Source: Candidatus Binatia bacterium (GTDB taxonomy: Bacteria; Desulfobacterota; Binatia; HRBIN30). From it: a stretch of 64,000 nucleotides of DNA. Below, in pieces: positions 60,139-63,386 of this stretch. The notes under the pieces were generated by a model. It made no database searches. It saw only the letters and a list, made by a program, of their open reading frames with translations, and was not told the origin of the DNA. A program made the position numbers and the translations under genes. The stretch spans positions 62,001-126,000 of the forward strand of contig JAKLJW010000004.1 in assembly GCA_023150935.1 (NCBI GenBank). The letters are read 5' to 3'. Positions within the stretch are counted from its first letter, which is position 1. Each line of letters starts with the position of its first letter.

Positions 60139-61692
60139 TCAAGGGCCGACGTCGGCCTGGTGTTGACGGTAGCGTGACCGTCGATGTTCGAGTTTGTTGA
60201 GCGCATTGACGAACGCGAGGGCACTGGCGTGGATGATGTCGGTATGCGCGCCCTGTCCGTTGGCGGTAACGCCGTCCGCGTCGATGAGACACGAAACCTC
60301 GCCGAGAGCGTCGGTGCCGCCGGTTATGGCTTTAACGGCGTAGCGCTCGAGCCTGGGGTGTACGCCGGTGATGTCGGCGATGACCTTGTAGCAGGCGTCG
60401 ACCATGCCATCGCCGGTGCCTTCGCCGTAGCGTTCCTGCCCGTCGATGCGCAGGCGTACCGCGGCCCGCGGCAGCGCCGAGGTAGATGCCGTGACGTCCA
60501 GCTCCAGCAGTTCGTATCGGTCGGGTGCCCGGACCGCCTCTTCGGTGACGATCGCGAGCAGGTCTTCGTCGTAAACGCTCTTCTTCAGGTCGGCCAGCGC
60601 CTTGAACCGGGTGAAGGCCTTGTTCATGTCGACGTCGTACAGGTCGATGCCAAGTTCCTTGAGTCGCATCGCGAAGGCGTGGCGGCCCGAGTGTTTACCG
60701 AGCACAAGGGTATTGCTGCTGATACCCACCGACTCCGGCCGCATGATCTCGTAGGTGAGCTTGTCCTTGAGCACGCCGTCCTGGTGAACTCCGGCCTCGT
60801 GGGCGAAAGCATTGGCGCCGACGATCGGTTTGTTGGCGGGGACGGTCAGGCCGGTGACTTGCGCCAGCAGCCTACTGGCAGGGAAGATCTGCTCGGTTTG
60901 GATGCCCGTGTGGAGATGGAAGAAGTCGTCGCGCGTCTTGACCGCCATCACGACTTCCTCGAGCGAGGTGTTGCCGGCTCGTTCGCCGATGCCGTTTATC
61001 GTGCACTCGATCTGGCGGGCGCCGTTGCGGACGGCAGCCAGCGAGTTGGCTACGGCCATGCCCAGGTCGTTGTGGCAGTGCGCGCTCCAGCGTATCCGAT
61101 CGCCCCCCGGGGTAGTGCCGATCACGTAACGGAAGAGGGCGCCATACTCCTCGGGCACCGCATAGCCCGTGGTGTCCGGGACGTTGATCGTCGAAACCCC
61201 CGCCTTGATGACCGCGGTGAACACCTTGACCAGGTATCCCGGGTCCGATCGAGAGGCATCTTCGGCGGAAAACTCGACATAGTCGATGTGCTTGCGGGCG
61301 AACTCGACCGCCCAGCAGGCGGCGTCGATTACTTCCTGCCGACTCATCGAAAGCTTACGTTCGAGGTGCAGATCCGAGGTGGCGATAAAGATGTGGATGC
61401 CTGGCCGTTTGGCTTTCTTCACCGATTCCAGAGCCTGAGTGATGTCGGCTTCGCGGGTGCGCGCCAGACTGAGCACAATGGGGCGCGCCACCGCCTCGGC
61501 TACTCTGGCGACGGAATCGAAGTCGCCGGGGGACGAAACGGCAAATCCCGCTTCGATGACGTCCACACCGAGCTTCTCGAGCTGGCGGGCAATAACGATC
61601 TTTTCCTCGACATTCATCGTCGCGCCCGGCGACTGCTCGCCGTCGCGCAGAGTGGTATCGAAGATCCAGACTTGGTTCGGGTCGGCGGTCAT
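60139..61692 (-). CDS. leuA: 2-isopropylmalate synthase
   Basis: 517 aa, first enzyme of leucine synthesis (acetyl-CoA + 2-oxoisovalerate). ATG 61692 is preceded by GGAGGGAGA. The TIM barrel begins WIFDTTLRDGEQSPGATM and contains HCHNDLGMA (metal site) and the ANKPIVGANAFAHEAGVHQDG region. The C-terminal ~130 residues are the leucine-binding regulatory domain, so the enzyme should be feedback-inhibited. It also appears controlled by the leader upstream. It sits after pssA in an ilvC-psd-pssA-leuA run. Confidence 0.96.
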   Translation of the reverse strand: MTADPNQVWIFDTTLRDGEQSPGATMNVEEKIVIARQLEKLGVDVIEAGFAVSSPGDFDSVARVAEAVARPIVLSLARTREADITQALESVKKAKRPGIHIFIATSDLHLERKLSMSRQEVIDAACWAVEFARKHIDYVEFSAEDASRSDPGYLVKVFTAVIKAGVSTINVPDTTGYAVPEEYGALFRYVIGTTPGGDRIRWSAHCHNDLGMAVANSLAAVRNGARQIECTINGIGERAGNTSLEEVVMAVKTRDDFFHLHTGIQTEQIFPASRLLAQVTGLTVPANKPIVGANAFAHEAGVHQDGVLKDKLTYEIMRPESVGISSNTLVLGKHSGRHAFAMRLKELGIDLYDVDMNKAFTRFKALADLKKSVYDEDLLAIVTEEAVRAPDRYELLELDVTASTSALPRAAVRLRIDGQERYGEGTGDGMVDACYKVIADITGVHPRLERYAVKAITGGTDALGEVSCLIDADGVTANGQGAHTDIIHASALAFVNALNKLEHRRSRYRQHQADVGP

Positions 61693-61725
61693 GACTCTCC
61701 CTCCGTTTGCGGCGCTGCAAACACG

Positions 61726-61797
61726 AAGGGCCACGGGGGGAGCTGCCCGTGGCCCTTCTAAAACAAACCTGCCACGGGCGGGGCTCCCGCCCGTGGC
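61726..61797 (-). promoter_or_regulatory. leuA leader: mutually exclusive hairpins (putative attenuator)
   Basis: Reading on minus: hairpin B has perfect 12-bp arms GCCACGGGCGGG (61797-61786) and CCCGCCCGTGGC (61782-61771) with a 3-nt loop. After a 13-nt linker, hairpin A has perfect arms AAGGGCCACGGG (61757-61746) and CCCGTGGCCCTT (61737-61726), then CGTGTTTG. CCCGTGGC of B can instead pair with GCCACGGG of A. CCCGCCCG inside the leader ORF (61849-61842) can pair with CGGGCGGG of B. Five segments with alternating pairings result, the arrangement of a ribosome-mediated attenuator. The U-tract after A is weak. Confidence 0.68.
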
Positions 61798-61821
61798 GTC
61801 GTTTCGCAGCGTCAGTTTTGC

Positions 61822-61905
61822 CTACGCCGCTCCAGACGCTCCGGGCGGGCCCGGAAGCAACAGTTCCGCAAGGAGCAACCCGAGCTTCTGGATCGACGCG
61901 AACAT
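61822..61905 (-). CDS. leuL: Leucine leader peptide LeuL (27 codons)
   Basis: An 84-nt ORF on minus from ATG 61905 to TAG 61822. It begins MFASIQKLGLLLAELLLPG and has seven Leu among codons 8-17, by far the densest Leu run in the region. AGGTG lies 7 nt before the ATG. It starts 9 nt after the pssA stop and ends 24 nt before the first leader hairpin. The design matches amino-acid leader peptides that sense charged tRNA-Leu. It is too short for routine gene calling. Confidence 0.8.
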   Translation of the reverse strand: MFASIQKLGLLLAELLLPGPPGASGAA

Positions 61906-61914
61906 GTTTTGCAC

Positions 61915-62757
61915 CTAATCGACGGCTGGAGGGTTGTCAAGCATGGTTTCGCGTGGCGGGCGGCCGTCGGCGCCCTGGCCGCGGTTCAGCCGGCGCCCGC
62001 GCAGGCGCCGCAGCCGCAGCCATCCCCAGCGCACCGGACCGGAAGCTGCGTAGCACCAGAATACGGCGAACAACATGATCTGCGGCTCGGCAATCAGCAG
62101 CATCAGGAGCACGATGCCGGCGATCAGCAGCGAGAAAGGGTGGCGTCGGTAAAGGTCTCCCTCTTTGAAGCTGAAGAACTTGACCGCGCTGACCATCAGT
62201 CCGGCAAGGGCGTAAGTCACAAACAACAGCAAGAGGTTAGCGTAGGTCGGACCGTCGCCGCCGAACCGGTAGTAAACGAGGACGCTCGACGCGATGACCT
62301 CGGCGGCCGCCGGGATCGGAAGCCCGGTGAAAAGCCGCTTCTCGCCGACGTCGTACTGGACGTTGAAGCGCGCCAGTCGCAGCGCCCCACACGTAACGTA
62401 CAGAGACGCCGCCAGCCAGCCCCACGTGCGAAGGGGCTCCAGCGCCCAGCGATAAACCAGGATGCCCGGGGCGACACCGAAGGCCACCAGGTCCGACAGC
62501 GAGTCGTATTCGATGCCGAATCGGCTGGTGGTGCGCGTCAACCGCGCGATCCGCCCGTCGAGGACATCGAACACGTTGGCGACCAGCACGGCGATGGCCG
62601 CCGACAGGAAGTCGCCGCGCATACTGGCGATGATCGAATAGAACCCGGCGAACAACCCGCCTGTGGTGAGGAGATTCGGGAGCAAATAGACACCCCGATG
62701 CAGAGGGCGGCGCGGTCCGTCGGGACGAACCGGCGCGGCGGCGGATGCGAAACCCAT
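61915..62757 (-). CDS. pssA: CDP-diacylglycerol-serine O-phosphatidyltransferase
   Basis: 280 aa from ATG 62757 (overlapping the psd stop by 1 nt; a GTG 9 nt upstream is an alternative). The CDP-alcohol phosphotransferase signature DGRIARLTRTTSRFGIEYDSLSD (DG...AR...G...D...D) is intact and is surrounded by about eight hydrophobic segments. It makes phosphatidylserine, the substrate of Psd encoded just upstream. The C-terminal ~40 residues are Arg/Gly-rich. Its 3' end abuts the leucine leader. Confidence 0.94.
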   Translation of the reverse strand: MGFASAAAPVRPDGPRRPLHRGVYLLPNLLTTGGLFAGFYSIIASMRGDFLSAAIAVLVANVFDVLDGRIARLTRTTSRFGIEYDSLSDLVAFGVAPGILVYRWALEPLRTWGWLAASLYVTCGALRLARFNVQYDVGEKRLFTGLPIPAAAEVIASSVLVYYRFGGDGPTYANLLLLFVTYALAGLMVSAVKFFSFKEGDLYRRHPFSLLIAGIVLLMLLIAEPQIMLFAVFWCYAASGPVRWGWLRLRRLRGRRLNRGQGADGRPPRETMLDNPPAVD

Positions 62758-63386
62758 CAAGGCCACTCCGCCAGTACCGTTTCGCCGGCAACGGCACGGT
62801 CACCCACCGCAACACGAACGCGAGCCGCCCGGGGCAGATAAACGTCGGCGCGCGAGCCGAACTTGATCATGCCGTAACGCGATCCTTGCTCGACCCGGTC
62901 TCCGGGTCGCAGTCGGCAGACGATGCGCCGCGCGACAAACCCGGCGATCTGTACGCAGCACAGCCTCCTGCCCGCATCGTCTTCGAGCAATACCGCCGTT
63001 TGTTCGTTATCGAGCGAGGCCTTGTCGGCAAAAGCACGGAAGTATTTTCCCGGATGGTGGTGCACATCGAGAACCCGGCCGCTAACCGGGGCACGATTCA
63101 CGTGCACGTTCAGAGGCGACATGAAGATGCTCACGATAGTCGCGTCCGTATGGAGAAAGCGCTCGTCCCGGACCGTCCCCATCTTGATAATACGCCCGTC
63201 GGCCGGGGCGAGGATCAGGCGAGGATCCGCGGGGCAGTTCCGTTCCGGGTCGCGAAAGAAACTGACGGCGAACACCGTCGCGGCGGCTGCGACGGACGCG
63301 GCGACCGTCCAGCCGAGGACGTACAACACCGCCGTTGCCAGCGCGGCGGCGGCGATCGAGTGCAGGCCGTCGCGGGCAATGGGCAC
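62757..63386 (-). CDS. psd: Phosphatidylserine decarboxylase, short type
   Basis: About 209 aa from GTG 63386, where homology begins (VPIARDGLHSI); a CTG at 63419 is another option. One N-terminal membrane span (~residues 9-45), FFRDPERNCP, APADGRI, SIFMSPLNVHVNRAPVSG and the self-cleavage site GMIKFGS, where Gly-Ser is cut to form the pyruvoyl group, mark the short (PSD-A) class. It converts phosphatidylserine to phosphatidylethanolamine. Lies 29 nt after ilvC. Confidence 0.9.
   Translation of the reverse strand: MPIARDGLHSIAAAALATAVLYVLGWTVAASVAAAATVFAVSFFRDPERNCPADPRLILAPADGRIIKMGTVRDERFLHTDATIVSIFMSPLNVHVNRAPVSGRVLDVHHHPGKYFRAFADKASLDNEQTAVLLEDDAGRRLCCVQIAGFVARRIVCRLRPGDRVEQGSRYGMIKFGSRADVYLPRAARVRVAVGDRAVAGETVLAEWP

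Follow-up and report, generated by a model that had tools for sequence, protein, structure and literature searches.

Why do a leucine-rich reading frame and two perfect palindromes lie between pssA and leuA in an uncultured soil bacterium? The question arose in the window, by which we mean the whole stretch of 64,000 nucleotides analysed. Our answer is that transcription of leuA is probably attenuated here by a ribosome-mediated mechanism that senses leucine and has the six-segment logic of a his-like leader, a computational reading to which we give a probability of about 0.84. The leader, its promoter, the helices and their conservation are supported by sequence comparison.

A leader ORF and its promoter

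The features of the locus are listed in Table 1. A Leu-rich frame of 27 codons had been predicted between the two genes, and it was found again on the - strand: seven of its codons are Leu (codons 8, 10-12 and 15-17, CTC TTG CTC CTT CTG TTG CTT). The two hairpins that follow had been described as perfect and 12 bp long; both are perfect, but only hairpin B has 12 bp, hairpin A counting 13. A repeat finder matched the 15 nt of segment B to segment C (61849-61835 with 61800-61786) with 87% complementarity. The original prediction comprised five segments. The number becomes six with a missed helix that begins nearer the 5′ end, 61898-61879 with 61844-61825. Segments are called A to F in this tandem architecture, as in his, and 1 to 4 in a single-hairpin architecture, as in trp. 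The region folds far better than its dinucleotide-shuffled versions (z = -3.8; none of 200 was as good).

Table 1. Features of the pssA-leuA region, in positions of the window
Feature	Positions	Strand	Sequence, basis or remark
pssA, putative CDP-diacylglycerol-serine O-phosphatidyltransferase	61915..62766	-	named from the sequence and in the original prediction
-35 hexamer TTGACA of leader promoter	61935..61940	-	sequence; inside pssA 3′ end
-10 hexamer TAGGTG	61912..61917	-	overlaps pssA stop codon TAG 61917-61915
leader ORF, 27 codons + TAG	61822..61905	-	MFASIQKLGLLLAELLLPGPPGASGAA*; predicted translation
segment A	61879..61898	-	ORF 5′ part, overlaps first Leu codon; 20 nt, 80% complementary to 61844-61825
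segment B	61835..61849	-	CCCGCCCGGAGCGTC; ORF 3′ part; contains the first segment (61849-61842) of the original prediction
segment C	61786..61800	-	GACGCCACGGGCGGG; 61797-61786 is the hairpin B 5′ arm
segment D	61771..61782	-	CCCGCCCGTGGC; hairpin B 3′ arm; then AGGTTTGTTTT (61770-61760)
hairpin B (C:D)	61797-61771	-	12 perfect bp, 3-nt loop
segment E	61746..61758	-	GAAGGGCCACGGG; hairpin A 5′ arm
segment F	61725..61737	-	CCCGTGGCCCTTC; hairpin A 3′ arm; tail GTGTTTGCAGC
hairpin A (E:F)	61758-61725	-	13 perfect bp, 8-nt loop
leuA ribosome-binding site	61697..61704	-	GGAGGGAG; sequence
leuA, 2-isopropylmalate synthase, regulated gene	60139..61692	-	ATG at 61692; LeuA searches

The leader had been credited with a Shine-Dalgarno motif of its own, AGGTG. 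This motif falls instead inside a -10 hexamer, TAGGTG, 17 nt from a TTGACA, and the last codons of pssA, the upstream gene, contain this predicted promoter. Six nt separate the hexamer from the ATG of the leader, which makes the leader mRNA, transcribed from its own promoter, probably leaderless. Transcription generally starts about 7 nt past a -10 box, which would give these leaders a 5′ UTR of 0-6 nt, and of about 0 in the window. Transcripts beginning at the leader start codon, as predicted here, are those of the Sinorhizobium meliloti trpL attenuator (PMC7298713) and of mycobacterial polycysteine ORFs (as cited in PMC13236596); these concern other amino acids and other phyla.

Conservation and covariation in the Binatota

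LeuA searches assign the window genome to Candidatus Binatota/Binatia (among the matches are records named Candidatus Binatia, Binatota and Binatus soli), and 95 distinct Binatota leuA loci were compared. Relatives might have lacked a Leu-rich ORF, which would have spoken against the prediction; about 60 of these loci have a Leu-run leader ahead of leuA, 29 of the tandem-hairpin and 29 of the single-hairpin class. The count of about 60 also takes in a near-duplicate (L048), a truncated contig (L035) and L114 of genome G008, where the leader MNARSHNALGLLLLGLLLPCPPAASGGA stands ahead of a duplicated leuA copy. At L114 (G008:C8:149000-153000), the leader is followed by a shorter duplicated leuA, a full leuA and a leuB-like gene, the leader staying at the operon start. 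L102 and L105 look like further leader cases. Binatota-like leuA loci were also seen on contigs labelled Klebsiella pneumoniae (L039), Desulfurellaceae (L048) and Uhrbacteria (L099). The first two are probably mislabelled or come from mixed metagenome bins; for L099, on a long branch, we are unsure of this reading.

The promoter is conserved along with the leader. All 26 of the tandem-class relatives scored have an exact TTGACA, with a spacer of 17 or 18 nt. From the -10 box to the start codon there are 6 to 12 nt in the relatives (mode 9, mostly 8-10), compared to 6 nt in the window. Of 58 leaders, 43 scored 9 or more out of 12 for this promoter, as did 0.4% of control positions. Shine-Dalgarno-like matches are mostly 0-4 nt long before the leaders and mostly 4-7 before leuA.

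Covariation in the pssA-leuA gap of relatives had been put forward as a check, and the pairings proposed earlier (ORF segment with the 5′ arm of B, 3′ arm of B with the 5′ arm of A, and hairpin A itself) proved conserved or covarying in the 29 tandem relatives. The shuffled controls keep phylogenetic relatedness, the structures were derived from the same sequences, and pair counts support rather than prove the helices: C:D has 91.5% of cells paired, with 21 double-sided changes against 9.8 in shuffles, and E:F 92.9%, with 38 against 11.6, the strongest covariation among all helices. Segment E drifts (GCCACGGG, GCTGCGGG, GCCGTGGG) and F compensates. The variation of E consists almost only of one-sided transitions which keep its pairing to the near-constant D, so that D:E has 98.7% of cells paired, against 37-48% in slid controls. 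For B:C, 76.4% of cells are paired (34-51% when slid), and in this tandem set no covariation beyond shuffles was found. The A:B helix was seen in the window only. The arrangement is thus that of a his-type, six-segment attenuator: C:D, D:E and E:F are conserved, and B:C is paired.

In the single-hairpin class, the 3:4 hairpin (CGCCCCGGG..CCCGGGGCGTTTTCTTTTT) has 96.0% of cells paired, and 16 of its changes are double-sided, where shuffles give 2.9. The antiterminator 2:3 has 92.5% paired and 7 such changes (shuffles 1.0), among them AU to GC and UA; 1:2 is 85% paired, with no covariation. Pairing and covariation, together with the folding described below, point to mutually exclusive terminator and antiterminator helices.

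The LeuA tree groups the single-hairpin class into one clade (support 100); with midpoint rooting, its deepest split has tandem forms on either side. Roughly one third of the loci have no leader, and most of these belong to two clades, of 24 and 5 loci. The presence of leaders on both sides of the deepest split means that the Leu leader was probably ancestral in the Binatota and was lost a few times, which is the simplest reading of these sequences. Several loci that have no Leu leader (L042, L045, L053, L060, L063, L078, L085, L090, L093 and relatives) share a conserved terminator-like hairpin, CTCCCGYTGGC..GCCGCGGGAG-TTTTT, situated 10-60 nt before leuA, near its ribosome-binding site; no leader ORF was seen there. 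This hairpin may be an attenuator of a different type.

The proposed switch and its terminator

We infer a leaderless start, ribosome stalling, termination and a response to leucine from this arrangement, as follows. The promoter in the last codons of pssA would give an almost leaderless mRNA beginning at the leader ATG. Under a shortage of charged Leu-tRNA, the ribosome would stall in the first cluster of Leu codons (8-12), preventing segment A from pairing with B. The free segment B would pair with C and leave D free for E, neither C:D nor E:F would form, and the polymerase would read into leuA. With ample leucine, the ribosome would reach the stop codon and sit on segment B, or its release would allow A:B to form; C:D and E:F would then form, and transcription would stop at B, at A, or at both.

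The first Leu cluster had been proposed as the sensor, and predicted folds agree. With a ribosome at Leu8, B:C forms, followed by D:E once E is made. A stall at the second cluster already leaves C:D, and this designates the first cluster as the sensor. A ribosome at the stop codon would mask just the 3′ half of segment B; RNA made to the end of hairpin B then folds into C:D, and RNA made to the end of F gives, at equilibrium, a mixed structure of C to F, not two separate hairpins. With a stalled ribosome, the full transcript refolds at equilibrium to C:D and E:F. Since equilibrium favours these two hairpins once F is present, the switch would have to be kinetic, acting during transcription.

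The codon CTT makes up 25% of the leader Leu codons in the tandem class and 26% in the single class, against 3% and 7% in leuA, and it is the last leader Leu codon in 23 of 30 and 20 of 29 cases, respectively. Rare codons are important for the leu attenuator of Salmonella (PMC1183508); rare Leu codons are found in both systems, CUA in E. coli and Salmonella leu, CUU here.

Which hairpin terminates? The original prediction gave this role to hairpin A. A proper U-tract does follow A in many relatives (L018, L044, L055, L101, L109 and L110, with little or none after B), but in the window genome B has the better one. A first reading of ours, that A is no terminator for want of a U-tract, was dropped in view of these relatives. 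The termination signal is at hairpin B in L031, L032 and L007, where B is followed by GTTTTT(T) and A is degenerate, and in L010, which has no E:F hairpin left. It is shared or weak in L036 and in the window, where both U-tracts are poor (AGGTTTGTTTT after B, GTGTTTG after A); more generally, the U-tract before the structural gene is clear in most relatives and weak in the window genome. Judging from these tracts, hairpin B may also, or mainly, terminate in the window genome. A single decision, B:C or not, governs both hairpins, and can explain that either one carries the termination signal.

The same observations could be read as those of a four-segment, trp-type attenuator, in which B would be the sole terminator here and A a relic, or a stem stabilising the mRNA. 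This would fit the better U-tract of B in the window, the four loci with their signal at B, and the single-hairpin attenuator of a whole sister clade (29 loci); it fits poorly with E:F having the strongest covariation, with the conservation of D:E, and with the better U-tract of A in the six relatives named above, and we hold it to be unlikely. The six-segment switch remains our preferred reading. The leaderless RNA or its peptide might in addition act in trans, like rnTrpL and peTrpL of S. meliloti, whose trpL has the leaderless 5′ end predicted here (PMC7298713), and the peptide C-terminus PPGASxG is indeed conserved in one subgroup. The encoded RNA segment B explains this conservation, however, and peptides differ outside the subgroup, making such a role improbable. 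Finally, it is very improbable that generic tandem intrinsic terminators or REP-like palindromes stand by coincidence next to a Leu-rich ORF: the 4-kb region does contain more hairpin-plus-T-run sites than expected (10 against 2.8, hairpin B ranking top), but conservation extends jointly to the Leu run, the promoter, segment B of the ORF and the hairpins, the ~30 nt from hairpin A to leuA are too short for a promoter and a ribosome-binding site, so that a plain terminator would silence leuA, and in the whole 5.3-Mb genome the pattern GCCACGGG-N3-20-CCCGTGGC is present only at hairpins A and B, which excludes the REP origin that had been a worry from the start.

A degenerate version of the hairpin pattern was not enriched in the genome either (6 against 16 in the control). 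Concerning known RNA families, Rfam Leu_leader (RF00512) gave no match at the gathering threshold, nor any among matches up to E=10, and no T-box or riboswitch family matched in the window. Two sub-threshold, hairpin-driven Rfam matches, ar7 and ar14, were taken as chance because they scored less than half of the gathering score.

Related leaders ahead of other operons

A covariance model, R1, was built from 26 Binatota leuA leaders only. In the window genome it scores 104 bits at the window site and below 17 bits elsewhere, save on the opposite strand of the site; the leuA attenuator is the only significant match there. Over 148 genomes of the GTDB phylum, by its breadth probably Desulfobacterota, matches at E<=0.01 were found in 56 genomes, where chance would give one or two if the rough E-values hold. 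With downstream genes named by Pfam, and leaders assigned by our own run score and partly by eye, about 49 of the 54 classifiable matches have a cognate-codon leader. Trp-run leaders precede trpE (6 of 6), trpD (1 of 2) and trpB2-like genes (2 or 3 of 4). DAHP synthase genes have a cognate leader in 18 of 18 cases (14 Phe/Tyr, 4 Trp), ADH-synthase-like aldolases a Phe/Tyr leader in 6 of 6, and class I aminotransferases in 7 of 8. Leu leaders were found for leuB (2 of 2) and leuA-like genes (2 of 3), an Ile/Val/Leu leader for ilvB (1 of 1), and Phe leaders for AMP-ligases (2 of 2) and binding proteins (2 of 2). None of the 20 loci tested among these matched an Rfam family.

The DAHP synthase genes fall into two sets, one with Trp-run leaders (L123, L152, L154, L177) and one with Phe/Tyr-run leaders (L120, L126, L130, L131, L137, L142 and others), and the type of leader predicts which amino acid controls a given isozyme. 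FFFCFF leaders stand ahead of Peripla_BP_6 amino-acid-binding protein genes in L168 and L184, predicting a Phe-controlled transporter. Phe-rich leaders also precede phenylacetate-CoA-ligase-like genes (AMP-binding_C_2) in L134 (FFFFFYF) and L183 (FFYFSYF), which suggests that these ligases serve aromatic amino acid supply.

In these remote relatives, B:C is re-made at each locus, for instance as CCGTCCGCCC:GGGCGGACGG in L130 and CTGTCTACCC:GGGTAGACAG in L131. It is partner-specific, with a mean duplex energy of -25.5 compared to -19.2 for mismatched partners, and the true partner is among the top two of 26 in 27 of 74 cases. By its construction R1 favours matches that carry the motif. As an independent check, trpE genes were collected by Pfam in 59 genomes, and 11 of 30 loci had a Trp-run leader just upstream. 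All 11 leaders have hairpins with a CCRYGG-type core, most of them tandem (e.g. L202, L205, L216, L218, L222, L223; by eye). The trpE locus of the window genome (L203, G000:C3) has no Trp-run leader.

Hairpin arms of different operons in the same genome are slightly more similar than those of unrelated pairs (0.717 against 0.670, permutation 0.027). The near-self-complementary CCRYGG pairs with itself using G-U, which allows any two of the arms C to F to pair; a common constraint may explain the likeness as well as copying does. Only tentatively, and at somewhat less than even odds, can we propose that a CCRYGG tandem core is a portable cassette, which Leu, Ile/Val, Trp and Phe/Tyr operons of this phylum have acquired by copying or have retained, with the leader codons and B:C alone changed, and that the single-hairpin clade of the Binatota reflects one conversion between six and four segments.

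How do these leaders compare to known systems? Like the Salmonella and E. coli his attenuator (PMC1183508), the leuA leader has a cognate codon run, the A:B, C:D and E:F helices opposed to B:C and D:E, and an extra hairpin between the leader and the last hairpin. It differs from his by responding, as predicted, to leucine, by being probably leaderless, by its shared CCRYGG arm core, and by a C:D that often has its own U-tract, so that both hairpins may terminate. With the E. coli and Salmonella leu attenuator (RF00512) it shares a Leu-codon leader of a leu operon, but it belongs to another phylum, has tandem hairpins, and is not matched by that covariance model. The LEU element of Actinobacteria (PMC1262725) also places a Leu-codon leader ahead of leuA; that element is a pseudoknot, with its base stem paired to the Shine-Dalgarno box of leuA, unlike the tandem terminator-like hairpins found here. 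An attenuator of the aromatic supraoperon in Desulfovibrio vulgaris (Merino database, PMC1173090 Table 7) is an earlier computational prediction in a deltaproteobacterium; it does not concern leucine, and the passages on it describe no tandem-hairpin cassette or operon-to-operon similarity.

The leader type had been thought undescribed. Its principle is that of classical attenuation, and its six-segment logic is the known his type (PMC1183508), not a new one; as to the lineage, our search, of mainly open-access papers, found no leucine attenuation in the Binatota and no tandem-hairpin family common to several operons. The finding adds predicted RNA-level control by leucine to an uncultured lineage for which none was found described. 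R1, which has no counterpart among Rfam 15 matches, detects many attenuators that are not annotated and predicts for each operon the amino acid that controls it, e.g. for Trp- and Phe/Tyr-controlled DAHP synthases. Finally, the extra hairpin of his is thought to lower basal read-through (PMC1183508), and orthologous leuA genes with either a six- or a four-segment attenuator would provide a natural test of this theory.
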